From NCBI GenBank assembly GCA_030123585.1, contig CP126120.1, positions 930,001 through 994,000 of the forward strand: a stretch of 64,000 bases of DNA. The letters run 5' to 3'. The notes under the pieces were generated by a model that saw only the letters and a list, made by a program, of their open reading frames with translations, had not been told where the DNA came from and searched no databases. This DNA is from Rhodanobacteraceae bacterium. Its GTDB lineage: Bacteria > Pseudomonadota > Gammaproteobacteria > Xanthomonadales > Rhodanobacteraceae. Shown here piece after piece: positions 6,191 through 21,500 of this stretch. Both the position numbers and the translations under genes were made by a program. The number at the start of each line of letters is the position of its first letter. Within the stretch, counting starts at the first letter, position 1.

Positions 6191-6988
6191 GCTGAGCCCT
6201 GTTTTTCCTTGTGCGAGAATTCCCGCTTCAATCCATCGGGCGTTGCACGGCATGAAAACCATCGGGCTGATCGGTGGCATGAGCTGGGAATCCACCCTGC
6301 ACTACTACCAGCGCATCAACGAGCTGGTGGCCGCGCGCCTGGGCGGCCTGCACTCGGCCAGGTTGTTGCTGTGGAGTGTCGAATTCGCCGAGATCGCGCG
6401 CCTGCAACACGCCGATGACTGGGATGCGGCCGGCCGCATCCTCGCAGATGCCGCGCGCCGGCTGGAACACGCCGGGGCCGAAGGCCTGTTGATCTGCGCC
6501 AACACGATGCATCGGGTGGCGCCTGCGGTCGAAGCGGCCGTCGGCGTTCCGGTGCTGCACCTTGCCGACATCACCGCCCACGCCTTGCTGGCCGACGGCC
6601 ACCGCAGCGCCGCGTTGCTCGGCACCCGCTTCACCATGGCCCAGCCGTTCTACCGCGAACGGCTGGAACGCCACGGCCTGTCCGTCAGCGTGCCGACGCC
6701 GGAAGAACAGGATGCGCTGCACCAGATCATCTTCGACGAGCTGGTGAAGGGGCGCGTGGAAGCGGCATCGCGCGAACGTTTCATCACGATCATGCGCCGG
6801 ATGCACAGCGCGGGCGCGCAGGCGGTGATCCTCGGCTGCACCGAGTTCGGCATGCTGCTGCGCGCAGAGGACGCGCCGGACATCCCGCGCGTCGACACCA
6901 CCGAACTCCACTGCCAGGCCGCCGTGGACTGGATGCTCGCGGAAGGCTCCGGTCACGAAGACGCGGCCTGATCGACTTTCAGTCGAGG
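6191..6988 (+). repeat. direct repeat, copy 1 (about 800 bp)
   Basis: This segment, including about 60 bases upstream of the racemase gene and about 15-25 bases after its stop, recurs at 8271-9067 in the same orientation with scattered substitutions. The shared upstream part includes TGCGAGAATTCCCGCTTC. Limits are approximate, judged by eye. Confidence 0.88.
6252..6971 (+). CDS. aspartate/glutamate racemase family protein, copy 1
   Basis: 239 aa, the usual length of the YgeA-like branch of the Asp/Glu racemase superfamily. It has the N-terminal MKTIGLIGGMSWEST, the first catalytic Cys at 82 in CANTMH and the second at 196 in GCTEF. These two Cys perform the PLP-independent two-base racemisation. 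Substrate cannot be told from sequence; Asp or Glu are typical, and some relatives prefer other amino acids. It is 229/239 identical to the copy at 8331, and both catalytic Cys are kept in both. An in-frame TTG at 6243 is less likely than ATG 6252. Confidence 0.92.
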   Translation: MKTIGLIGGMSWESTLHYYQRINELVAARLGGLHSARLLLWSVEFAEIARLQHADDWDAAGRILADAARRLEHAGAEGLLICANTMHRVAPAVEAAVGVPVLHLADITAHALLADGHRSAALLGTRFTMAQPFYRERLERHGLSVSVPTPEEQDALHQIIFDELVKGRVEAASRERFITIMRRMHSAGAQAVILGCTEFGMLLRAEDAPDIPRVDTTELHCQAAVDWMLAEGSGHEDAA

Positions 6989-8270: not shown

Positions 8271-9067
8271 TGCTGACCCTTTTTTCCTTATGCGAGAATT
8301 CCCGCTTCCATCCATCGAGCGTTGCACGGCATGAAAACCATCGGGCTGATCGGTGGCATGAGCTGGGAATCCACCATGCACTACTACCAGCGCATCAACG
8401 AGCTGGTGGCCACGCGCCTGGGCGGCCTGCACTCGGCCAGGTTGTTGCTGTGGAGTGTCGAGTTCGCGGAGATCGCGCGCCTGCAGCACGCCGATGACTG
8501 GGATGCGGCCGGCCGCATCCTCGCGGATGCCGCGCGCCGGCTGGAGCACGCCGGGGCCGAAGGCCTGTTGATCTGCGCCAACACGATGCATCGGGTGGCG
8601 CCTGCGGTCGAGGCGGCCGTCAGCGTTCCGGTGCTGCACCTTGCCGACATCACCGCCCACGCCTTGCTGGCCGACGGCCACCGCAGCGCCGCGTTGCTCG
8701 GCACCCGCTTCACCATGGCCCAGCCGTTCTACCGCGAACGGCTGGAACGCCACGGCCTGTCCATCAGCGTGCCGACGCCGGAAGAACAGGACGCGCTGCA
8801 CCAGATCATCTTCGACGAGCTGGTGAAAGGGCGCGTGGAAGCGGCATCGCGCGAACGTTTCATCACGATCATGCGCCGGATGCACACCGCGGGCGCGCAG
8901 GCGGTGATCCTCGGCTGCACCGAGTTCGGCATGCTGCTGCGCGCAGGGGACGCGCCGGACATCCCGCGCGTCGACACCACCGAACTCCACTGCCAGGCCG
9001 CCGTGGATTGGATGCTCGCGAAAGACTCCGGTTACAAGGACGCGGCCTGATCGACTTGCAGCCGAGG
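8271..9067 (+). repeat. direct repeat, copy 2 (about 800 bp)
   Basis: Second copy of the segment at 6191-6988, same orientation, offset about 2,079 bases. It starts within TGCTGACCC and ends shortly after the racemase stop. Confidence 0.88.
8331..9050 (+). CDS. aspartate/glutamate racemase family protein, copy 2
   Basis: 239 aa, differing from copy 1 at ten positions: 16, 28, 98, 145, 186, 206, 231, 232, 235 and 236. The changes are conservative in the body and cluster in the last ten residues. Catalytic Cys82 and Cys196 are intact. Both copies also share upstream sequence, so both are probably expressed, although the leader differs by a few bases. The role is as for copy 1. Confidence 0.92.
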   Translation: MKTIGLIGGMSWESTMHYYQRINELVATRLGGLHSARLLLWSVEFAEIARLQHADDWDAAGRILADAARRLEHAGAEGLLICANTMHRVAPAVEAAVSVPVLHLADITAHALLADGHRSAALLGTRFTMAQPFYRERLERHGLSISVPTPEEQDALHQIIFDELVKGRVEAASRERFITIMRRMHTAGAQAVILGCTEFGMLLRAGDAPDIPRVDTTELHCQAAVDWMLAKDSGYKDAA

Positions 9068-9139
9068 CGTCTCCCGTTCCCTGTCAGAAAACCGCCCCGA
9101 CCATCTTTTTGGTGGACTCGAGCGTTGATTCTGACCCTG

Positions 9140-10273
9140 CTAGGTGAGACCCGCTCTCCTCAATACGGCGCGGAGTTCGGGAATTTCCAGCGAAAACGTT
9201 TTTTCCAGCTTTTGCACATGGTCGACCAACCACATGGCTATTTCGGGCCAGGTTTCCCTGTCGTGCCCCTCAAACGACTGTCCATAACTTATGATCGAGA
9301 CCTTCTTATCGTCGTTGCGTCGCCACTCAAACGGCGCTCCGAACCTACCTTCGAGCTCTTCCTTCCGAGAAAAAAGTGCATCAAACATCGCCTTATTCTG
9401 ATCCTTGGATACCAGATCGAGAACAAATTCGACACGAGCTGCGTCGCGAGTAAATATCATCGAGTAGTGTGCGCCGCTCAGACCAGAACCCGCATTCAGC
9501 CAGTGATCCTTGCTGGCGCCGACATTGCCGAACAGGTGCACCCCCGACTGCTTTAGCTTTTCCAGTGCCAGTAGCCAAAACTCCGTGCGCAACTGGTGAC
9601 GGCTGGCCTGACCACGTTCAGACGATTGCTCTTCAGCCTCCTTTTCCGACATGCCGATCATGAACTCTTCAGCCTCAGGTAGCGGAATCACCTGCTCAAT
9701 GTTTAAAAACAATGCCTCTCCATCGCGATAGGGCGTCGCCCGAAAGCAAGTAATGGGAATCTTGTAGCCCAACAGCCAAAGTACAGTGGAAGTGACCTCC
9801 TTCCGAAACTGGGCGGCAACCATCACAACCCGCTGGCCATTTCCAGAATTGAGCACCACTTCCCCGAAATCCTCCTCACCCAAGAATTCGCAGATGAGCG
9901 CCCGAGCATCCTTTCCAGCCTCGGTCCTGTCAAGGTAACGCTGATAAATTTCAGCAATATTCGATTTGGACAAGGTCGAGCAATAGGACGCGTACTTGAG
10001 GCTTTGCCAAACCACGTCCCGACCTGAGTCATCCAGCTTGTTCTCGATGATCACCAGAGCGCCTTGCTTGTCCAGAGCAAGCAAATCAAGGCGCTCGCGC
10101 GTTTCATCGAACCCGTCGAACTCCTTCTGAATGATTAGCAACTCTTCGCCAAGCGCATCAGGCTGATTGGCGAGCCATTCTTGAAGATGATTGCGCTCCG
10201 TAAACCCGAGATCGGAAAACGTGACCGCCTCAAGCTTCGAAATGCGATTGGTTACATGATCGATGCGAAACAT
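9140..10273 (-). CDS. DUF4268 protein with NucS-like PD-(D/E)XK nuclease domain
   Basis: 377 aa from ATG 10273, which has AAAGGAGG about 6 bases upstream; an in-frame start further out lacks this. Residues 40-180 look like the NucS/DUF91 nuclease core: Asp63 in RERLDLLALD, then Glu77-x-Lys79 in VIIENKLDDSGRD and the following QSLKYASYCS helix. The C-terminal half carries DUF4268 (EFWLLALEKLK, GLSGAHYSMIF, WRRNDDKKVSII). Such proteins are predicted DNA endonucleases and occur on genomic islands. The tight D-ExK spacing suggests it is active. Directly upstream is a small acidic pseudogene. Defence is inferred from context, not shown. Confidence 0.85.
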   Translation of the reverse strand: MFRIDHVTNRISKLEAVTFSDLGFTERNHLQEWLANQPDALGEELLIIQKEFDGFDETRERLDLLALDKQGALVIIENKLDDSGRDVVWQSLKYASYCSTLSKSNIAEIYQRYLDRTEAGKDARALICEFLGEEDFGEVVLNSGNGQRVVMVAAQFRKEVTSTVLWLLGYKIPITCFRATPYRDGEALFLNIEQVIPLPEAEEFMIGMSEKEAEEQSSERGQASRHQLRTEFWLLALEKLKQSGVHLFGNVGASKDHWLNAGSGLSGAHYSMIFTRDAARVEFVLDLVSKDQNKAMFDALFSRKEELEGRFGAPFEWRRNDDKKVSIISYGQSFEGHDRETWPEIAMWLVDHVQKLEKTFSLEIPELRAVLRRAGLT

Positions 10274-10295
10274 TCCGCCCTCCTTTTCTATGCCG

Positions 10296-10571
10296 CTAAT
10301 CGAAATAATCGAGGAAATAGATCGCATCAGGCGTCGAGTCGACCCACGGCTTTCTAGTCATCACGTAGCCGAGTTTGTTGACAACGTGAAAGCCGGGGTG
10401 CGCGCACTAGTTGCCGTCGCTGTCGTCGCCGGTTTCGACCACCGTCCAGACATGGTTGGCCGGCTGATCGCGGACGTCCTCGAATTCGAACACGTCGCCG
10501 GACGGCTTGAGGTAGGCGCCCCACACTTCGTCAAACTCTCGCTCCGAAATGCACCCCATGTCGGTATTCAT
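10296..10571 (-). pseudogene. small acidic protein gene broken by an in-frame stop
   Basis: Read on the minus strand from ATG 10571, this encodes a clear paralogue of the intact 93-aa protein at 13767-14048. Shared stretches are ISERxFxxVWGxYL, VWTVV, GDDSDGN, PGFHVVNKLGYVMTRKPW and DSTPDAIYFLD. Codon 55 is TAG (10407-10409) where the intact copy has TGG (Trp). The rest of the frame stays open to 10296, so the damage is recent or the stop is read through. It is immediately upstream of the DUF4268 nuclease gene, 22 bases away. Function unknown. Confidence 0.85.
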
Positions 10572-10662
10572 GCGCACGACCTCACTACATGACTAACGAC
10601 TCCGAAGTCTACCGCGCCGGCTGCTCCAAGGCGCTTCGACACTGGCTTCGCGCTACGCCGCT

Positions 10663-11535
10663 CTATCCTTGGCCGTAGCATTCCTCGATGGCCGTCATGA
10701 TTCTGCGCCGCTGGGGCTCCGGGATCGGTCTACCACGATCATCCGCCATGAAGTTGCGCATTGCAGGGTTGATGACGTGGACGTCGGTTGACGGTACGGA
10801 AGTCGTGACGAACCAGCCTGGCAACGCCAGCACGGGCTCAACAGGCACTCGTTCCCCGGTCTTGCGGTGCAGGTAATCGCTCAGCCAACGAGTTTGGCCG
10901 CGGGCTTGATCAAGCATCTTCGTTTCGCGCCAACCCGGAAATACGAGTGACTGGCCATCGAACTTGACGGTTGCCTTTCCCGTTCCGCGCCCCGCTGGCT
11001 TTCGCCGCGACTTGGCTTCAATCATGAAAACGGTGCTCGGCCCCACCACGACGTGATCGAGGTTGAACTTGTCAGTGGGAATGTCGTGGTAGACCGCACA
11101 ACCCTTGGATGTCAGGGGCGCCAAGGCTTGGGCGGTTGCACGTTCCGCCGCGAGACCATCGAGATAGTCGCGCCGCTGACGAAGCCGCTTTCCGGCCGAC
11201 CACGCCGCCCAGCCACCGAACCCGACAACGAAGACAAGAAGAATCGCCTCAACAAGGCCAAATCGGAGCAGGTGCTTGTCGAGCTTTTGAACGGCCCAGA
11301 ACGCCAGTATCAGCGGGCCCACCAGCGTGGCCATGATCAGGCGGTCGCCCGCCGCTTCCATAAGCCTGTCTGCCTGCTGCTGCGCCTGTTGACCCGGCAG
11401 ATTGTGCAGGACAGACGTCAGAGGAGAACGACGCTTGTCCGTCTTGCGATCCCACCAAACCCAAAGAATGAGCAACCCCAGCGGCAGCAAGCCCAGTGCC
11501 ATGGCTGCAAAGAGCAAGAGTTCCGCAGCAATCAT
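10663..11535 (-). CDS. NERD-domain membrane protein
   Basis: 290 aa. Membrane segments lie at about 4-27, 66-83 and 93-113. After a short coiled linker comes a NERD (nuclease-related) domain with the core Asp160 in FNLDHVVVGP and Glu173-x-Lys175 in FMIEAKSRRKP, the PD-(D/E)XK-like triad. Then come GWRETKMLDQARGQTRWLSDYL and a short strand-rich tail. NERD proteins are probably DNA-processing enzymes and often sit in mobile or defence loci. The membrane anchor suggests it acts at the inner face of the membrane. It is divergent from the helicase gene at 11722, with 186 bases between the starts. Confidence 0.85.
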   Translation of the reverse strand: MIAAELLLFAAMALGLLPLGLLILWVWWDRKTDKRRSPLTSVLHNLPGQQAQQQADRLMEAAGDRLIMATLVGPLILAFWAVQKLDKHLLRFGLVEAILLVFVVGFGGWAAWSAGKRLRQRRDYLDGLAAERATAQALAPLTSKGCAVYHDIPTDKFNLDHVVVGPSTVFMIEAKSRRKPAGRGTGKATVKFDGQSLVFPGWRETKMLDQARGQTRWLSDYLHRKTGERVPVEPVLALPGWFVTTSVPSTDVHVINPAMRNFMADDRGRPIPEPQRRRIMTAIEECYGQG

Positions 11536-11721
11536 TGGCTGACTCCCCAGTCAGAATAGGTCTAAGCGGTCCGAGCTTGAGCGGCCGAGCGATACGGAGC
11601 GGCCCGCGGCTCGCGCACATCTTCTGCCTAGACGCGCAGCGGCGCCATTCCACGGTTTGCGTAACGTGAACAAGGTCATGCAATGCGGTAACCTGGCGAA
11701 CATCGGGGGCATAGCCAGTCA

Positions 11722-13725
11722 GTGATGGACCAACGCGCGTTACGCAAACGGTGGGGCTACGGGGCGTCCATCGCCGAATTCCTGGCGACGGATCCCGAAT
11801 TCATCCTCGGGGCGCTCGCGCGCTGGTCCGGTTTTGCAGATGAGGTCGCGCAAAAGGCGGCTTGGTCGGAGCAAATCGAAATCCTCAAGGGTTTGCTGCG
11901 GCCTTACGCCGGGTCGAACGGCGCGCTGTTCTTCGAATACGACATTCCCCGGCTGGGCCGACGCGTGGACACCGTGCTCGTGCTCGAGCACGTTCTGTTC
12001 GTCATCGAATTCAAGGTCGGCGCAAACACCTTCGCGCGCGACGCGATTGATCAGGTTTGGGACTACGCGCTGGACCTCAAGAACTTCCACGAGCCAAGTC
12101 ACCATATTCCGATTGTTCCCGTGCTCGTCGCCACCCATGCTGGCGCGGGGCCGAATGCATTGGCGCCAGCGCCACACGACGACGATGTTGCAAGGCCAAT
12201 GTGCTGCGGCGCCGCCGAACTGGCAGACGTCATCCGGCTAGGACTCAAACGATTCCCGCCGCCTCCGATCAATCCCGAGGTCTGGCAAAGTGGGCGGTAC
12301 CACCCAACGCCTACCATCGTCGAAGCGGCGCGCGCCTTGTACGCCGGACATTCGGTCGACGAAATCTCGCGCAGCGATGCCGGCGCTGCCAATTTGACGG
12401 CGACCGCGAACCGATTGGCCACGCTGATTGCGCAAGTGCGCCAGCGCGGTGAAAAGGCCATTTTCTTCGTGACCGGTGTGCCGGGTGCGGGCAAGACACT
12501 GGTTGGGCTGGATGTTGCCAACCGGCACACCGACAAAGACGATAGCCTTTACAGCGTGTACCTGTCCGGCAACGGGCCGCTGGTCAGCGTGCTCCACGAG
12601 GCGTTGGCGCGCGATCAGGTGGCGCGCAGCAAGGGCAAAGGCGAAGGCTTGCGCATTGGCCAAGCGCGGAGCGCCGTCAAGCAGTTCATCCAGAACGTCC
12701 ACCACTTCCGCGACGATTGCCTTGCGAGTGCCGGCGCGCCCCTCGAACACATCGCCCTGTTCGATGAAGCGCAACGTGCGTGGGATCTACAGGAAACCGC
12801 GCACTTCATGAAAAGCAAAAAGGGCATCGATGGTTTCGGTGAATCCGAACCGGCGTTCCTGATCTCCTGCCTTGATCGGCACGACGATTGGGCCGTGATC
12901 GTTTGCCTCGTGGGAAGCGGCCAGGAAATCAATCGCGGTGAAGCCGGCATCAGCGAATGGCTGGCGGCCATCCGCACGCGTTTCCACAACTGGTCCGTCT
13001 ATCTCTCACCCCGCCTGCGCGAGGTCGAGTATCACGCTGACACTGAATTGAGCGCACTTAAGTCGAATCCACACGCGCATTGGGACGATGCCCTGCACCT
13101 CGCAACGTCAATGCGTTCGTTCCGCGCCGAACGCGTGTCGGAGTTCGTGAATCTGTTGCTTGCGCTGGAGATCGATGGCGCACGCGCAGCCCTCGCCGAT
13201 GTACTGCCAACCTTCCCCATCCGCCTCACTCGCAACCTAACCCACGCCAAACAATGGCTGCGCCAGCAGGCGCGCGGCAGCGAGCGCTATGGCATCGTCG
13301 TGTCATCACAGGCGCAGCGCCTCAAGCCACACGCTATTGATGTGCGCGTGAAAGTGGATCCGGTGCGCTGGTTCCTCGAAGACAAGGATGATGTGCGATC
13401 GTCGTATTACTTGGAGGATGTCGCGACGGAATTCCAGGTCCAGGGCCTTGAGCTCGACTGGACCTGCGTTGTCTGGGATGGTGACCTGCGACTCAACGGC
13501 GGCCAATGGGATTATTTCGGGTTCAAAGGCAAACGTTGGAAACGCGTCCGCAAGCACGTGCGCCAGCGCTATCTACTCAACGCATACCGGGTGCTGCTTA
13601 CACGCGCGCGGCAAGGCATGGTCATCGTCGTTCCGGAAGGAAGCACCGATGATCCGAGCCGCGCGCCCGCGTACTACGACCCTGCATTCCGGCTTCTTGC
13701 TGAGCTTGGCATCCCCGCGTTGTAG
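11722..13725 (+). CDS. DUF2075 (Schlafen-like) helicase/ATPase with N-terminal nuclease-like domain
   Basis: 667 aa from GTG 11722 (ATG 11725 is equally possible). Residues 65-130 look like a PD-(D/E)XK fold: Asp83 in GRRVDTVLVLE and Glu96-x-Lys98 in FVIEFKVG. The C-terminal two-thirds is the DUF2075 superfamily-1-like ATPase: Walker A GVPGAGKT (252-259), Walker B FDEAQ (347-351), then RNLTHAKQWL, a VQGLELD motif and LLTRARQGMVIVVP, which matches helicase motif VI. A nuclease joined to an SF1 motor suggests DNA processing, as in several anti-phage proteins. It is followed by a small acidic gene and a membrane Mrr-like nuclease on the same strand. Confidence 0.88.
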   Translation: MMDQRALRKRWGYGASIAEFLATDPEFILGALARWSGFADEVAQKAAWSEQIEILKGLLRPYAGSNGALFFEYDIPRLGRRVDTVLVLEHVLFVIEFKVGANTFARDAIDQVWDYALDLKNFHEPSHHIPIVPVLVATHAGAGPNALAPAPHDDDVARPMCCGAAELADVIRLGLKRFPPPPINPEVWQSGRYHPTPTIVEAARALYAGHSVDEISRSDAGAANLTATANRLATLIAQVRQRGEKAIFFVTGVPGAGKTLVGLDVANRHTDKDDSLYSVYLSGNGPLVSVLHEALARDQVARSKGKGEGLRIGQARSAVKQFIQNVHHFRDDCLASAGAPLEHIALFDEAQRAWDLQETAHFMKSKKGIDGFGESEPAFLISCLDRHDDWAVIVCLVGSGQEINRGEAGISEWLAAIRTRFHNWSVYLSPRLREVEYHADTELSALKSNPHAHWDDALHLATSMRSFRAERVSEFVNLLLALEIDGARAALADVLPTFPIRLTRNLTHAKQWLRQQARGSERYGIVVSSQAQRLKPHAIDVRVKVDPVRWFLEDKDDVRSSYYLEDVATEFQVQGLELDWTCVVWDGDLRLNGGQWDYFGFKGKRWKRVRKHVRQRYLLNAYRVLLTRARQGMVIVVPEGSTDDPSRAPAYYDPAFRLLAELGIPAL

Positions 13726-13766
13726 CCAGGGTAGTATGCGCGAAGCCGCCTGCGCAGGTCACAACT

Positions 13767-14048
13767 ATGCCTTCCGATCAGGACCTCATATCCGAGCGCG
13801 ACTTTGAAAACGTCTGGGGTGTGTACCTCACGCCATCCGGCGATCTGTTCCAGTTCGACGAGGTCCGCGAGCAACCGGAAAATTGTGTTTGGACCGTCGT
13901 CGATTCGGGCGACGACAGCGATGGCAACTGGTACGCGTTGCCGGGTTTTCACGTCGTCAACAAGCTGGGGTACGTCATGACCCGGAAGCCTTGGTCAGAC
14001 TCGACGCCCGACGCCATCTACTTTCTCGACGATTTTGAGGACGACTAG
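13767..14048 (+). CDS. small, very acidic protein, intact paralogue of the 10.3-10.6 kb pseudogene
   Basis: 93 aa with about 21 Asp/Glu against 5 Lys/Arg, ending in FLDDFEDD. It is Trp- and Tyr-rich, beta-looking, without signal peptide or membrane segment. I do not recognise the family. It lies 41 bases after the DUF2075 helicase and 62 bases before the Mrr-like nuclease. The broken paralogue lies just before another nuclease gene, so this gene type twice accompanies predicted nucleases. An inhibitor or DNA-mimic role would fit its charge, but that is speculation. Confidence 0.72.
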   Translation: MPSDQDLISERDFENVWGVYLTPSGDLFQFDEVREQPENCVWTVVDSGDDSDGNWYALPGFHVVNKLGYVMTRKPWSDSTPDAIYFLDDFEDD

Positions 14049-14110
14049 GCGGTTAGTCGGCATCGTTTGTGCTTGCATACCGATGGTGGGCGCTCAGTGG
14101 GGGAAGGGAG

Positions 14111-14917
14111 ATGGCGCGGCGCAAACAGGGCGGGTTTGAATTGATCGCATCGGCACCGTGGCCGGTCGGGTTGGTGCTGGGGATTGTTGCCTACGTGGCC
14201 GTGCGCTACGGAATCGGCTGGTATCTGTCTTCGTCAGGCAATCAATTTCTCGTACCGATCGGCAAGGCGGCGAACCGCGGCGCCACCACGATCCTTGCAT
14301 GGGCGTTGCTCGGGATTTGCTGGGCCGCTGCGCTCGCCTCATTCGTCGCGCGTCGCCAGCGCGGTCGCTTGCTCGAAACACAAACAGGTCTCGACAGCCT
14401 GCGCGCAATGAGCTGGAAGCAATTCGAGATGCTAGTTGGCGAAGCGTTCCGCCGCCAAAGCTATCGGATCGAGGAAACCGGGCTTGGCGGCGCAGACGGC
14501 GGCATCGACCTGCGGCTGAGTAAAAATGGCAAAAGCACGCTTGTGCAATGCAAGCAGTGGCGCAACCAGCGCGTGGACGTCAAGGTCGTGCGGGAGATGT
14601 ACGGGCTGCTTACCCATCACCGCGCGGACGCTGTGAAGATTGTCGCCGTCGGGGATTTCACGCCGGACGCACGACGATTCGCACAAGGCAAGCCCATCGA
14701 ACTCATTCATGGCGAGGCACTGCTCGCAATGATCCGGGGTGCGCAAAACGCGACACCTGTCATGACCGATTCAACCTCAAAATCGACGACGGGAGCGGCT
14801 TTGCCCGACTGCCCGAACTGCGGCGCTCCAATGATCAAGCGCACGAACCGCCGTTCCCACGAAGCATTTTGGGGATGCCCGAAGTATCCGAGTTGCCGCG
14901 GGACGCGCCCAGCCTGA
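14111..14917 (+). CDS. Mrr-like restriction endonuclease with two TM segments and a topoisomerase-type zinc ribbon
   Basis: 268 aa. ATG 14111 follows a strong GGGAAGGGAG ribosome site. Two membrane segments (about 16-40 and 60-80) precede the Mrr_cat domain: LRAMSWKQFEMLVGEAFRR, Asp133 in GADGGIDLRL and Gln146-x-Lys148 in VQCKQW, a canonical D...QxK site. Then comes ADAVKIVAVGDFT. The C-terminus (about 228-264) is a four-Cys zinc ribbon (CPNCGAPM...GCPKYPSC) like those appended to topoisomerase I. Type IV restriction of modified DNA is typical for Mrr; the membrane-anchored version has no firmly known role. Likely co-transcribed with the two upstream genes. Confidence 0.9.
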   Translation: MARRKQGGFELIASAPWPVGLVLGIVAYVAVRYGIGWYLSSSGNQFLVPIGKAANRGATTILAWALLGICWAAALASFVARRQRGRLLETQTGLDSLRAMSWKQFEMLVGEAFRRQSYRIEETGLGGADGGIDLRLSKNGKSTLVQCKQWRNQRVDVKVVREMYGLLTHHRADAVKIVAVGDFTPDARRFAQGKPIELIHGEALLAMIRGAQNATPVMTDSTSKSTTGAALPDCPNCGAPMIKRTNRRSHEAFWGCPKYPSCRGTRPA

Positions 14918-15046
14918 GCTCCATCCGACACGGGAGACTTAATTACCTCCGTCTGCATTTGCCCGCCAGAAAATGTCCCTGACACCTTTTTACTGACATG
15001 AGATTCGTGGGGAAACCTCAGACTCTGACCCCTGTTTTCCCGCCAT

Positions 15047-15235
15047 TTACGACCTTGGCTTCGGTTCTCGACTTGGTGAAGCGAAAACACCCGATTTCTC
15101 CAACCGCTTCCGAACTGCCTCAACATGTCTTTCATCCATAGACAATCGCTTTCGAGGAAAACAAGTGACTGACGACGCCACATTCTTGAACTGGAGTTCC
15201 CCTTGAGGAATCCGGCTAGTCTCTTTACGCTTCAT
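15047..15235 (-). CDS. small basic ORF overlapping the deaminase stop
   Basis: 62 aa. Its ATG (15235) lies inside the last codons of the deaminase gene, an 11-base overlap typical of translational coupling. It is basic (MKRKETSR, FPRKRLS, VRKRLEK), with a predicted helix at DERHVEAVRKRLEK. I know no family. It could be a real partner protein or a chance frame; the overlap and the operon position argue for real. The following 130 bases up to the Mrr-like gene carry a CAGACTCTGACCCC remnant also seen near 7.1, 8.3 and 9.1 kb. Confidence 0.5.
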   Translation of the reverse strand: MKRKETSRIPQGELQFKNVASSVTCFPRKRLSMDERHVEAVRKRLEKSGVFASPSREPKPRS

Positions 15236-16832
15236 TCTCTTTCACCTCGAATTGTTGAGCCACATCGCTGACAACCTTGTCCTCATAAACTGTAAAACTG
15301 TCAAGATGCCTTCTATAAATAGGTAGCGCTTCCTTACGATCTACCTCCAATAATTTGCCAAGCTTCTTTCGTTCACCTTTTACCTGAAACAAGTCCAAGA
15401 TATGTCGGGGCGCAAACCCTTCAAATTGAATAAAGTGGCATTTATTAGTATCTCGTTCATCTTCTGAAATCGAGTCAGGATGCAAATGTGTCGCAAGGCT
15501 CTTTTCATAAGGTTCAATATAGATAACTTTAACAACGCCCGCAGCCACAATGTGGCGAGCGCAATTATGGCAAGGGTAGGTAGTAACTACCAAAGTGCTA
15601 TCTCTGAGACTGTGCCGCTTGTCTCGCGCCACTGCCAAAATAGCTGACATTTCAGCATGGATCGCTCGTGAGAATTCAATCAGCGAAGAAATTCCGGAAC
15701 TCTCTATAGCACCCCGAATCTCCTCGTCGGAGAGCGTGACGGGAATCTGCTTCGCCCCCTTGATTAGCGGGGCATCTGCAGCTTTCTTAGTTAGTGCGTT
15801 CCGAATACCAGATACGATTTTGCTTTCAATCTTTGCCTTCTCGTTATCATTGTGACAAATTCGCTCTCGCCATCTATAACAGCGGTGGTCATTATCAGAT
15901 GGGGTTTGCTCCATATGAGCGTCTTCGTAAAGACCACCACCGAATTTCGGCACATCATTCCAGCCCACGGAAATTAGCTGATCGTCACTCCCAACCAGCG
16001 CCGCACCCACCTGTCGCGACATGCAGGCCGACTTTGAGGCAGCGGTGGTCGCATGAAACATGGCAGACTCTTCGACCGTTGGACTTCTGATCTCAGCACC
16101 AAATAATACATCCAGGAACCGATTTACAATCGGATTCAAATTGTCAATACTCTCTGTTGCATTCCTGATAAAAAAATCAGACCGTGAAAACGCCTTACGT
16201 ACCTTTTGCCCAAACTCTGACGCCTCCCCTTGGTCTCTTTTTAAAATCGGATAGATCTTTTCTCGGTCTACTCCTAATGCCATCAACCGCGCCTCACGAA
16301 CATAATCTGGTGCAAATACGCCAACAAGCCAAAAAAGATTTCCATAAATTTCTTTAAGCTGATCTACTTCCTCTGGGTGCTTTAGTGAGTCAATCAAATA
16401 AATTCGACGAACAGACTTCGGAATTTCCATCCCATCTGCAGCACCCATTTCAAAACCATCTTTGTGGCGGATTTCGGAAATCCGCTTAACAGCAAGCCGA
16501 GCCAATATCGACGCTCCATGATTTGCCCGCAGCAGATTACCCGCGTCCTGATAAGACTGAATCCGTTGATCCAAACTACTACCCTCAGAGACATTGCTAC
16601 TATAAGTCCGGATAAAATCACTCACCTTTATTATCTCCGGAACATCGTAACGGAACTCCGACTCTAAACGCTTCTTTACCAGGCGAGCAACAGAGCTAAC
16701 TCCAGACGCAACCGGACCAATAAACGCAACAACGAGCTCCTCGGAAAGCCGTTCCCTGATCGAGGTCGAAAATTTATGCACTTCATGTGTAGTCTCGGAA
16801 GGCAGCTTTACACCAGCAACGGCAGTGTTCAT
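15225..16832 (-). CDS. AvcD-like anti-phage dCTP/dCMP deaminase (P-loop domain plus deaminase domain)
   Basis: 535 aa. The N-terminal P-loop kinase-like domain has GPVASGVSS (39-47) where a Walker A would be, lacking the usual GKS/T lysine. The C-terminal cytidine/deoxycytidylate deaminase domain has SRQVGAALV (272-280), the zinc ligand and proton shuttle HAE (392-394) and PCHNC (420-424). This two-domain build is that of AvcD, which defends by deaminating dCTP/dCMP and starving phage of deoxycytidine. In the known system the toxin is held by a small RNA, AvcI, encoded beside it; only 76 bases separate this gene from the one upstream, so any such RNA would have to overlap genes. A TTGAGGA site precedes the ATG. 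It is AT-richer than the flanks. Confidence 0.9.
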   Translation of the reverse strand: MNTAVAGVKLPSETTHEVHKFSTSIRERLSEELVVAFIGPVASGVSSVARLVKKRLESEFRYDVPEIIKVSDFIRTYSSNVSEGSSLDQRIQSYQDAGNLLRANHGASILARLAVKRISEIRHKDGFEMGAADGMEIPKSVRRIYLIDSLKHPEEVDQLKEIYGNLFWLVGVFAPDYVREARLMALGVDREKIYPILKRDQGEASEFGQKVRKAFSRSDFFIRNATESIDNLNPIVNRFLDVLFGAEIRSPTVEESAMFHATTAASKSACMSRQVGAALVGSDDQLISVGWNDVPKFGGGLYEDAHMEQTPSDNDHRCYRWRERICHNDNEKAKIESKIVSGIRNALTKKAADAPLIKGAKQIPVTLSDEEIRGAIESSGISSLIEFSRAIHAEMSAILAVARDKRHSLRDSTLVVTTYPCHNCARHIVAAGVVKVIYIEPYEKSLATHLHPDSISEDERDTNKCHFIQFEGFAPRHILDLFQVKGERKKLGKLLEVDRKEALPIYRRHLDSFTVYEDKVVSDVAQQFEVKENEA

Positions 16833-16908
16833 TCCTCAATCCCCCAACATTATGGAACGTTATAGTTTGTAGGACACTTTGTTCGCTTATACGCATTCGC
16901 CACTATCC

Positions 16909-17853
16909 TCAGACCTCTCGGATGAGTCGCTGAAGTGTGTAAAAGCGTTTGGCGGGCTTGTTCGGCCGCCTGACTTCTCTAACGTCAAACTCACCAAGCC
17001 ACCTATGCCCAACTGGATTGGATAAGCCTTGAAGTACTTGCTCGCCTATTTCTCTACTGGCATCGGTCGCAACTTTGCCCGAAATTGTTTCACCCGACTC
17101 CTGAAGCACAAATTCAAATCTACGATGAGCCGGTAATAGTCCAAAGAGTAAACCAGTTAGTTGTACAGCATTTTGCTCAACTAGTTCGATTCCCTCCGTC
17201 CGTTCTTTTGCTCGCTCCACATCCTCGCGTCCGAGCGAGACTTCCCGCGCACCCTCCACGATTTTTAGTGTTGCTTGGGCATTCGCCAAGGAATCAAAAA
17301 ATGCCTTGGTTGAACTGAGGAGCCTAGAATCTATGTCCGCTATGGCATCGATGAAGGGATCTTCAGCAGGGTCAGCGATTTTGGCTACAAAATCAACCAC
17401 ATCTGTCACGACTTCGCTTAGTTGCGTACGCAGGGCCTCTTCTTGATCCCCAACTTCCTCAAGCACAAATCCAAACGAACCTCGAGTAACTGCGGTCACC
17501 ATCAGTTTAGAATCCGATTGAGCCGCAATCGGCCCGCGCGCACCCAGTGATCCTAGTTCTCGGCGAGCGAACACCTTTGACACGAGGTCTTGAAACCGTT
17601 CTAGAGCATCGCCTGCAAAGCTCGCATCTATTCCTCGCGAACCTAGTACTTTGGGCCCCCCAAAAAATAATGCTGCGGACGCATTCTTTTCCACAAGAGA
17701 ATTAAGCAGATTAAGTTCTGCGTTTAATTTCTGAAGACGCTGTTCAAATTGTCTTGCACCAAGAACGTCTCCGACCTCGGTAGCCTGCGCAAGCAGGTCT
17801 CGTACAGTCGCTCGCTCTGCCGACACTTCTTCATGGCGCAATTTAGTTGGCAT
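16909..17853 (-). CDS. unrecognised 314-aa protein, partner of the nucleotidyltransferase-like gene
   Basis: Start ATG 17853, overlapping the upstream gene by 11 bases (ATGCCAACTAA contains its stop); a longer in-frame start exists but reaches deep into that gene. Residues about 8-60 are predicted helical or coiled (ERATVRDLLAQATEVGD, FEQRLQKLNAELNLL). The middle (KLMVTAVTRGSFGFVLEEV) and the C-terminus (HRRFEFVLQESGETISGKV, GHRWLGEFDVREV) look beta-rich. There is no signal peptide, membrane segment or catalytic motif I can name. It is AT-richer than the host genes. The tight coupling to an NTase-like protein suggests a two-protein toxin-antitoxin or defence module; this is inference. Confidence 0.78.
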   Translation of the reverse strand: MPTKLRHEEVSAERATVRDLLAQATEVGDVLGARQFEQRLQKLNAELNLLNSLVEKNASAALFFGGPKVLGSRGIDASFAGDALERFQDLVSKVFARRELGSLGARGPIAAQSDSKLMVTAVTRGSFGFVLEEVGDQEEALRTQLSEVVTDVVDFVAKIADPAEDPFIDAIADIDSRLLSSTKAFFDSLANAQATLKIVEGAREVSLGREDVERAKERTEGIELVEQNAVQLTGLLFGLLPAHRRFEFVLQESGETISGKVATDASREIGEQVLQGLSNPVGHRWLGEFDVREVRRPNKPAKRFYTLQRLIREV

Positions 17854-18409
17854 TGGCCTCTCCCTCGAGAAGAGCCGCCGCTGACGCATCGTCCTCGTCA
17901 AGGCTAACCTGCACGAGTCCCTTCCACAGGGCCGTTTCTCTTTGATGCGAAAACAAGCCGAACCAGAATACGGATTGCCTGATTACTACTGAAACAGGGA
18001 TGGTCAAATCCACAAAAAAACAATGAAGACCTAGTCCCTCCGCAGTCAGAACCGCGATATTTTGCTCTACGAATTCTTCCCATGCTGCCTTATCGGATGC
18101 TCCTGCGGGCCGACTGAGAAAGGTAACGACATCGATGTCACCTGGGGGCCTGCCGCGCTGCATTTCAACATCTTCAACAAAGCTTCCATCAATCCACTGA
18201 TATCCGCGAATTCCGAGTTGTCGCAGTGATCGTCGATACTGGAAGAGGTCTCGAAGTAATAATTTTCGCTCCGGACTTGTCGCAAAAGTTGAGACGAGCT
18301 CATGTGGTGTGATTTGGTAGGGTGAACGGCCAGCAACGTTGTCCTTCGTCGCCCCTAGCTCTGGGAGATATGGCGGCAATACACCCGATAACGTGAATGA
18401 TGGAAGCAC
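17843..18409 (-). CDS. nucleotidyltransferase-like protein (DUF6932 type)
   Basis: 188 aa. The core GYQWIDGSFVEDVE...PPGDIDVVTFL matches the nucleotidyltransferase pattern G-S, about 14 residues, then D-x-D, as in minimal nucleotidyltransferases and the DUF6932 family. A third acidic residue is plausible in LHCFFVDLTIP. The C-terminus is acidic (DEDDASAAALLEGE). Members of this fold act as antitoxins (MNT of MNT-HEPN pairs), AMPylators or signal synthases; the sequence does not say which. It is first in a run of minus-strand genes: this, its 314-aa partner, the AvcD-like deaminase and the 62-aa ORF. It begins just beyond the 3' end of icmF. Confidence 0.72.
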   Translation of the reverse strand: MLPSFTLSGVLPPYLPELGATKDNVAGRSPYQITPHELVSTFATSPERKLLLRDLFQYRRSLRQLGIRGYQWIDGSFVEDVEMQRGRPPGDIDVVTFLSRPAGASDKAAWEEFVEQNIAVLTAEGLGLHCFFVDLTIPVSVVIRQSVFWFGLFSHQRETALWKGLVQVSLDEDDASAAALLEGEANAN

Positions 18410-18521
18410 TAGTCGTCCCCCTGAGATCAGTTGCTACCTAAGCTCCTGGCTGCGAAATCGACTACTTATTCTGCACCGTTGGCTGCGTCGCACTATCCGC
18501 AGAAGCAAATGCGAGGATTCT

Positions 18522-21500
18522 TCACATATTCCGCCGATACTCGCCACCCACATCGTACAGCGCATGGCTGATCTGCCCCAGCGAGTGGGTCTTCACCGCT
18601 TCCATCAGCGCTTCGAACACGTTGCGGCGTTCGCGGGCGGTGTCCTGCAGGTAGCGCAGGCCGTGGCCGTCGTGGACTTGCTTGACGGGTGTGTCGGCGG
18701 AATCGACTTCGTGCGTGCGGTCGGTTTCGCCTGAGGGCGCCAGCGGGTTGCGGGCTTGCTGGAAGGCTTGCACGTTGTCGATCTGCTGGTGCTTTTCTTC
18801 CTCGGTCGAGCGGATCAGTTCGATGGTGGTGGCGACTTCGCCGGCGTGTTCCTTGGGCAGGAAGGTGTTGACGCCGATCAGCGGCAGCGAGCCGTCGTGT
18901 TTCTTGTGCTCGTAGTACAGCGATTCTTCCTGGATCTTGCCGCGCTGGTACATGGTGTCCATCGCGCCCAGCACGCCGCCGCGATCGCTGATGGCCTCGA
19001 ACTCCTTGTACACGGCCTCTTCCACGAGGTCGGTGAGCTGCTCGATGACGTAGCTGCCCTGCCACGGGTTTTCGTTGAAGTTGAGCCCCAGCTCGTGGTT
19101 GATGATGAGCTGGATGGCGACCGCGCGGCGCACCGATTCCTCGGTGGGCGTGGTGATGGCCTCGTCGTAGGCGTTGGTGTGCAGGCTGTTGCAGTTGTCG
19201 AACAGCGCGTACAACGCCTGCAGCGTGGTGCGGATGTCGTTGAACTGGATTTCCTGCGCGTGCAGCGAGCGGCCGGAGGTCTGGATGTGGTACTTCAGCA
19301 TCTGGCTGCGCGGTGACGCGCCGTAGCGCTCGCGCATCGCGCGCGCCCAGATTCGCCGGGCCACGCGGCCGATCACGCTGTATTCCGGGTCCATGCCGTT
19401 GGAGAAGAAGAACGACAGGTTGGGCGCGAAGTCGTCGATCTGCATGCCGCGCGCGAGGTAGTACTCGACGATGGTGAAGCCGTTGGACAGCGTGAAGGCG
19501 AGCTGCGAGATCGGGTTGGCCCCGGCCTCGGCGATGTGGTAGCCCGAGATCGACACCGAATAGAAGTTGCGCACCTTGTGGTCGACGAAATACTGCTGGA
19601 TGTCGCCCATCATGCGCAGCGCGAATTCGGTGGAGAAGATGCAGGTGTTCTGCGCCTGGTCTTCCTTCAGGATGTCGGCCTGCACGGTGCCGCGCACGGT
19701 GGAGAGCGTTTGTTCCTTGATGCGCGCGTAGGTTTCGGCATCGACGAGCTGGTCGCCGGCGACGCCGAGCAGCGCGAGACCGAGGCCGTCGTTGCCCTGC
19801 GGCAGGTCGCCGTGGTACTGCGGGCGCGGCTTGCCCTTGAAGAGTTGGTCGATCTTCTTTTCGGCGGCCGCCCAGCGCGAGCCGTCTTCCTTCAGGTATT
19901 TCTCGACCTGCTGGTCGATCGCGGTGTTCATGAACATCGCGAGGATCATCGGCGCGGGGCCGTTGATGGTCATCGACACGCTGGTCTTGGGGTTGCACAG
20001 GTCGAAGCCGGAATACAGCTTCTTCATGTCCACCAGCGTGGCGATGGACACGCCGGAGTTGCCGATCTTGCCGTAGATGTCCGGGCGCGGCGCCGGGTCT
20101 TCGCCGTACAGGGTCACGCTGTCGAAAGCCGTGGACAGGCGCGCGGCGGGCTGGCCGAGGCTGAGGTAATGGAAGCGCCGATTGGTGCGCTCGGGCGTGC
20201 CCTCGCCCGCGAACATGCGGGTCGGGGCTTCGCCGCTGCGGCGGTACGGATACACGCCGCCGGTGTAGGGATACGCGCCCGGCAGGTTTTCCAGCAGCAG
20301 GTACTTGAGCTGCTCGCCCCAGTCGTTGGTGGTGGGTGGCGCGATCTTCGGCACCTTCTGGTGCGAGAGGGTTTCGCGGTAGTTCGAAACCTTGATGGCC
20401 TTGCCGCGGACGGTGTATTCGTTGAATTCGGCTTGGACCGCTTCGCGGCGGGAGGGCCAGTCGCGCAGGGCGTGGATGGCTTCGGATGAGAGTTCCTTTA
20501 CCGCTTCGTTGTAGCGTTGGCGGAGAAGAACCATCGATCGATCAGCCAAATTGGCTGTTGTAGGAGCGCCGGAAGGCGCGACCGTTTTCGCGGCGTAGGT
20601 CGGGCCTTCCGGCCCTCCTACAGAGGCGCTTTGGAGGGCGGCGCTGTCGTACAAATCCAGCGCGCGCGGCAATTGCGCGTCACCCAGTTCCTTCAACGAT
20701 TCGTAATAGTGCTGCGCCTTGGACGCCGCCTCCGCCATGCGTTTGGCATCGGCATTGATGCCACGGCCTTGCTCGGCGATCTCGGCGAGGTAGCGCACGC
20801 GCTTGCCGGGGATCAGCACGGTGGCGCGCGGTTCCTTGAGCGACGTATCGACGTGAGGCTGGAAGTCGCAATGGCCGTTGTAGGAGCCCGCCTTGCGGGC
20901 GACCGCTTCACCGGCATTGGCCGGGTCGCGCGCAACAGAAGAAGCAGGCGCTTCGCGCCGGCGCGCTCCTACATCGTCCAGATGCAGTTTCTCGCGAAGA
21001 AGCCTGCACAAATTCACGAACATCCAGGTGACGCCCGGATCGTTGAACTGGCTGGCGATGGTGGGATACACCGGCACGTCTTCGTCCGGCATCTGGAACG
21101 CGGTGTGGTTGCGCTTCCACTGCTTGCGCACGTCGCGCAGCGCGTCTTCGGCGCCGCGGCGGTCGTACTTGTTCAGCACGACGAGTTGCGCGAAATCCAG
21201 CATGTCGATTTTTTCGAGCTGCGACGCCGCGCCGTAGTCGCTGGTCATCACGTACACCGGGAAATCGACCAGATCGACGATCTCGGTGTCGGCCTGGCCG
21301 ATGCCGGCGGTTTCGACGATCACCAGGTCGAACGGCATGGATTTCAGGAACGCGATGCAGTCGTGCAGCACCGCGTTGGTGGCGACGTGCGCGCGGCGGG
21401 TCGCCATCGAGCGCATGAACACGCGATGCGAGCGCAGCGCGTTCATGCGGATGCGGTCGCCCAACAGCGCGCCGCCGCCCTTGCGGCGGGTCGGATCGAC

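Follow-up and report, generated by a model that had tools for sequence, protein, structure and literature searches.

Several described systems pair a nucleotidyltransferase with a second gene. In AbiE (AbiEi/AbiEii) and MenAT the nucleotidyltransferase is the presumed effector and is accompanied by a cognate second gene, and HEPN/MNT (HepT/MntA) likewise combines a small nucleotidyltransferase with a second gene. The described system closest to the locus analyzed here is PDC-M63, a catalogued two-gene defense candidate. PDC-M63AB has been deleted from E. coli NILS69 with no evidence of defense (PMC12409345), which is the single published test and was done on another branch of the family with a limited phage panel.

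We analyzed a stretch of 64,000 nucleotides from a Rhodanobacteraceae genome, hereafter the window, which carries a nucleotidyltransferase gene followed by a partner gene. The features of the pair are:

17843..18409, minus strand: nucleotidyltransferase-fold gene, 188 aa, GTG start; Pfam DUF6932, PADLOC PDC-M63A, PHROG 9194
18131..18187, minus strand: active-site stretch of the nucleotidyltransferase, codons 75-93, G75-S76-F77-x-E79-x-x-E82 ... P89-x-D91-I-D93
18023..18025, minus strand: His codon 129 of the nucleotidyltransferase, Asp in 33/37 homologues
17843..17853, minus strand: overlap of both reading frames, 11 bases
16909..17853, minus strand: partner gene, 314 aa, ATG start; PHROG 18731, homologous to PDC-M63B

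The 11-base overlap reported in the initial annotation agrees with these coordinates. A ribosome-binding-like stretch, GAGGGAGAGG, lies just 5′ of the partner start within the 3′ end of the nucleotidyltransferase gene, and AGGGGGA sits just 5′ of the GTG start of the nucleotidyltransferase gene itself. Both genes are AT-richer than the genome, as had been claimed, with GC fractions of 0.515 (nucleotidyltransferase) and 0.502 (partner), whereas the window without the island that holds them has 0.659. A chance pair of open reading frames is ruled out because homologues of both genes occur in the same order, mostly overlapping, at about 70 loci.

Homology of both proteins to PDC-M63

The nucleotidyltransferase matches Pfam DUF6932 (PF22014) over nearly the whole profile with 95.9 bits against a cut-off of 27 (E 3.9e-27), and it also matches PADLOC PDC-M63A (E 1.5e-11) and PHROG 9194; a literature search found no paper that names DUF6932. 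The sole database family matched by the partner is PHROG 18731 (E 8.6e-37), with no match in Pfam, NCBIfam or PADLOC (PADLOC down to E ≤ 1). The module had been called unrecognised, which does not hold, as it is already represented in Pfam, in two PHROGs and in PADLOC. The partner had been described as having no nameable family, and no named family was indeed found, but it belongs to a PHROG and is homologous to PDC-M63B. The initial annotation had also set its proposal against a match to a characterised system or housekeeping enzyme, and no characterised system was matched.

Using hhalign, the first proteins align with PDC-M63A at 99.3% (E 1.2e-20), and the partner family profile aligns with PDC-M63B at 97.5% (E 8.7e-12, 288 columns), the homology extending over the whole length of the partner. 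The partner profile also detects the M63B protein of L116 at 6e-9. The genuine PDC-M63 loci (L114-L116) share with the window pair the two-gene order, similar protein sizes and the overlap, and their first proteins have in common with it W-x-D-G-S-F ... P-x-D-I-D, a later Asp, and the YW/W and KG motifs. Because both proteins are homologous to PDC-M63A and PDC-M63B by profile comparison, we conclude from sequence that the window pair belongs to PDC-M63 as a divergent branch. There are also differences, in that the first protein of the window has greater length and carries the signatures GSFxExxE and WKG, and that the second gene is below the reach of current PADLOC models, which miss the window partner and match only a few of its 46 relatives. 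The partner thereby escapes standard defense-finding models, so that such loci go unannotated, and tying DUF6932 and PHROG 18731 to PDC-M63 unites scattered unknowns in one testable superfamily. Two of the 46 partner relatives (alignment A3) weakly match PDC-M32A (7.5e-8), a hint in the sequences that PDC-M32 and PDC-M63 may share a partner superfamily. Identification of the partner as DUF7946/DUF7947 was unsupported in genomes with genuine PDC-M63 loci, and L011, considered as a partner homologue, was a false match inside an unrelated long open reading frame.

The G-S...D-x-D core proposed for the first protein was found as G75 S76 ... D91 I D93. Its G-S then D-x-D arrangement, a trait of the pol-beta-type superfamily, is present in 37/37 homologues, among which G75-S76-F77-x-E79-x-x-E82, P89-x-D91-x-D93, H155 and W162-K163-G164 are invariant. 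The third carboxylate typical of that superfamily, carried on a following strand, is present in the family and absent from the window copy: at position 129, where the third metal ligand would probably lie, 33 of 37 homologues have Asp and the window copy has His, and at position 123 it has Ala in place of the Lys of 34 of 37. His129 is common to the window copy and its closest relative, from Dyella (L002), which makes a sequencing error unlikely, and a relative in Lysobacter arvi retains Asp; from this comparison we take His129 to be a genuine feature of a small clade. With the likely third ligand replaced by His and the conserved Lys by Ala, the activity of the window copy is uncertain, and the enzyme may be weak or inactive.

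The AlphaFold2 model of the nucleotidyltransferase has a pLDDT of 94.1. Its top PDB fold matches are mostly nucleotidyltransferases, including the MNT antitoxin 7ae9 (best, E 0.024), HI0073 (1no5), FAM46 and CdnC, and all are weak (E 0.02-0.1, none below 0.001). Neither Pfam nor PADLOC gave a CD-NTase match for the first protein or an AbiEii or AbiEi profile match for the pair. The locus differs from AbiE and MenAT in this respect, in having the enzyme gene first, and in that no winged-helix match was found for the partner model. A profile search of PDB sequences with both proteins returned nothing useful.

The partner model is also confident (pLDDT 93.1) and agrees with the coiled N-terminus and beta-rich C-terminus that had been proposed. 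In the model, residues 3-52 form an N-terminal two-helix coiled coil, the center is an alpha/beta part that carries FxG..V.G..GI and GSxGF motifs, and the C-terminus (~223-313) is an OB-like beta barrel resembling OB and cold-shock folds. PDB fold matches of the partner are weak. Conserved positions are chiefly glycines, phenylalanines and the GSxGF motif, and conservation among homologues gave no evident catalytic residue set. The barrel is missing from the partner in one lineage of four related genomes of a single genus (L013, L014, L015, L016). In these genomes the pair is inserted between conserved chromosomal genes, with YicC-like and potassium-transporter families among the neighbors.

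The best viral fold match of the partner is a phage protein named DUF6575 (E 3.1e-13, probability 1.00). A DUF6575 protein belongs to an experimentally selected E. coli defense locus (PMC9519451). The likeness in fold is set against a superposition that is only partial (TM 0.42/0.36) and a DUF6575 profile that does not detect the window partner, is rare in the phylum and is absent at the pair, and we treat this modeled resemblance as only a lead.

Conservation and mobility of the pair

Searching viral contigs with the first gene recovered the partner immediately 3′ in 53/53 loci, and searching with the second gene recovered the nucleotidyltransferase immediately 5′ in 23/23; the same order is kept on plasmids and chromosomes. 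The junction overlaps in 27 of 29 homologous pairs measured, and the distance matrices of the two proteins are strongly correlated (Mantel r = 0.905, with 0 of 5000 permutations above 0.31). No case was found of the partner standing without the first gene in a core genome position, an outcome that had been named as one that would speak against the module. We conclude on these comparative grounds that the pair is a real, conserved and translationally coupled unit.

DUF6932 genes occur in 10 of 234 genomes of the family (~4%) and in 1 of 16 of the genus, so the module is accessory. Carriers of the pair include prophages, plasmids and genomic islands. The nearest relative pair, with 74-75% identity, is in Dyella, where it is followed by an Mrr-like nuclease (assigned by eye) and then by the antiviral reverse transcriptase DRT2 (448.6 bits, cut-off 390). 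This setting, like that of the window pair ahead of the anti-phage deaminase, speaks for the defense reading given below. Neither window protein had a match in INPHARED phages by tblastn, and a pair of the L093 type was found at the DNA level in no E. coli genome. On a Bradyrhizobium plasmid (L005:6946-9778), a multiubiquitin / ThiF-type / DUF6527 gene set lies next to the pair.

Among the genes near the pairs are matches to type I restriction and MADS models. IetAS, AbiE and MADS models are present as well in 16 usable control regions from the same genomes (one control stretch of the genome that the window comes from is N throughout), and the neighbor tally counts families, not genes; for both reasons we claim no enrichment. 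The gene-neighborhood check thus did not establish a concentration in defense islands. The earlier interpretation of the locus as a conserved, coupled and mobile two-gene module in a defense-type island stands, and its description of the module as unrecognised does not.

Proposed function and competing readings

The explanation that we consider best, with a probability of roughly 0.5, is a mobile two-protein complex of the PDC-M63 superfamily in which the enzyme is the effector and the partner a regulator or adaptor, and the best reading of its role is a lysogeny-expressed defense or toxin-antitoxin-like complex. The first protein, a putative DNA-polymerase-beta-type nucleotidyltransferase, would be the catalytic part. 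The partner, with no conserved catalytic residues, would most likely be a regulator or target adaptor, whose coiled coil could serve assembly and whose OB-like barrel could bind either nucleic acid or some factor of the phage or host. The partner would keep the enzyme inactive or steer it in lysogens and island carriers; upon phage infection the enzyme would modify an RNA end or a protein by nucleotide addition, and phage growth would be stopped, often with loss of the infected cell. In this scheme we infer complex formation, trigger, target, defense and the identity of the harmful protein alike. A more ambitious version, which we put forward only tentatively, is that of a widespread anti-phage system that is expressed during lysogeny and works by a new mechanism, in which a minimal nucleotidyltransferase is gated and aimed by an infection-sensing OB-barrel partner, unlike HEPN/MNT, AbiE and CBASS. 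The family itself is not new, as DUF6932 / PDC-M63 is already a catalogued candidate.

Expression in lysogens is suggested by position. Of 42 non-redundant prophage-type loci, 19 have a CI-like repressor encoded on the same strand 1-4 genes upstream of the pair, and the site just downstream of the repressor is where temperate phages express genes in lysogens. This placement would also suit a prophage module for lysogeny control or host fitness, where the pair modifies host or phage RNA or protein and keeps lysogeny or excludes its own phage type only, and the negative defense test in E. coli (PMC12409345) is consistent with such a role. However, the pair is also found outside evident prophage, on plasmids and chromosomal islands (e.g. 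the window and L004-L006), and copies adjoin the anti-phage deaminase or DRT2. We judge this reading of a pure lysogeny role rather improbable overall. The repressor-linked position is at the same time a reason to consider superinfection defense despite the negative E. coli result.

Somewhat less probable again is an arrangement like that of HEPN/MNT, in which the partner is a toxin and the nucleotidyltransferase an antitoxin that silences it by adding nucleotides. The small enzyme, the two genes and their tight coupling would fit, and the MNT antitoxin is the best, though weak, fold match of the first protein. The partner, however, is predicted as a coiled coil, an alpha/beta part and an OB barrel rather than a HEPN four-helix fold, and by model and conservation it lacks the HEPN fold and R-x4-6-H or any other catalytic set. 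The pattern of decay across loci points the same way. Among 70 loci checked, the nucleotidyltransferase is broken beside an intact partner by a stop (L010), a frameshift (L021) and perhaps also at L098, and a deletion at L023 leaves a remnant of the nucleotidyltransferase with the partner intact. The partner is missing at one locus, L008, where a transposase-like open reading frame (named by eye) follows instead. The first gene is thus broken beside an intact partner at 3-4 loci and the reverse is seen once, an asymmetry that is small in numbers and comes in part from draft genomes. Repeated loss of the enzyme with the partner kept fits the enzyme as the costly part and speaks against the partner as toxin with the first protein as antidote, since a free toxin would hardly permit such loci. 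The HEPN/MNT logic is therefore disfavored by both the predicted structure of the partner and the decay pattern.

A CBASS-like pair, in which the first protein makes a cyclic-nucleotide signal and the second senses it, is very improbable. CdnC is among the weak fold matches of the first protein, but 188 aa is too short for a two-lobed CD-NTase and the partner lacks any known domain of the cyclic-nucleotide receptor, nuclease or membrane kind, so that enzyme size and the missing receptor both argue against this reading.

The variable island and its deaminase gene

The island that holds the pair and the deaminase gene beside it are:

9056..18521, no strand: variable island holding the pair, GC 0.552, 9.5 kb
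15225..16832, minus strand: anti-phage dCTP deaminase (AvcD-type), next gene downstream of the partner

Genus relatives align exactly to 18522, the end of a mutase gene, which gives the island a sharp right edge; on the left, homology ends near 9055, and the relatives carry other DNA in between. The deaminase matches NCBIfam NF041025 with 447.9 bits (cut-off 400) and PADLOC dCTPase at 1.6e-155. The pair had been placed directly upstream of an anti-phage-type deaminase on the same strand, and this was confirmed, with a gap of ~76 bases between partner and deaminase. The adjacency holds, but a functional link does not follow from it, as the evidence is one of neighborhood and the arrangement is seen only here. 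Because none of the other fetched loci has a close deaminase homologue beside the pair, it is most reasonable to regard the deaminase as a neighbor within the island. A three-gene system in which nucleotidyltransferase, partner and AvcD-type deaminase act jointly on nucleotides during infection would account for the shared strand, island and short gap, but the deaminase has its own family, known without the pair, and with no such homologue at those loci we regard this as the least probable reading of all. Rfam gave no match at all in 9000-19000, and so none to an AvcI regulatory RNA, although Rfam may not include AvcI and the interval between the deaminase and partner genes is shorter than 80 bases.

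The rest of the island (9140-14917) encodes four further proteins. One gave a weak match of the NucS-like kind. The other three, which matched nothing in NCBIfam, were assigned by eye as a membrane protein possibly related to nucleases, a P-loop protein of 667 aa and an Mrr-like restriction endonuclease that has a zinc ribbon. Beside the island lie two near-identical aspartate/glutamate racemase genes (6243-6971 and 8322-9050). Two relatives (L160, L163) have a single region that matches both at ~95-97%, which suggests a recent duplication of the racemase gene.
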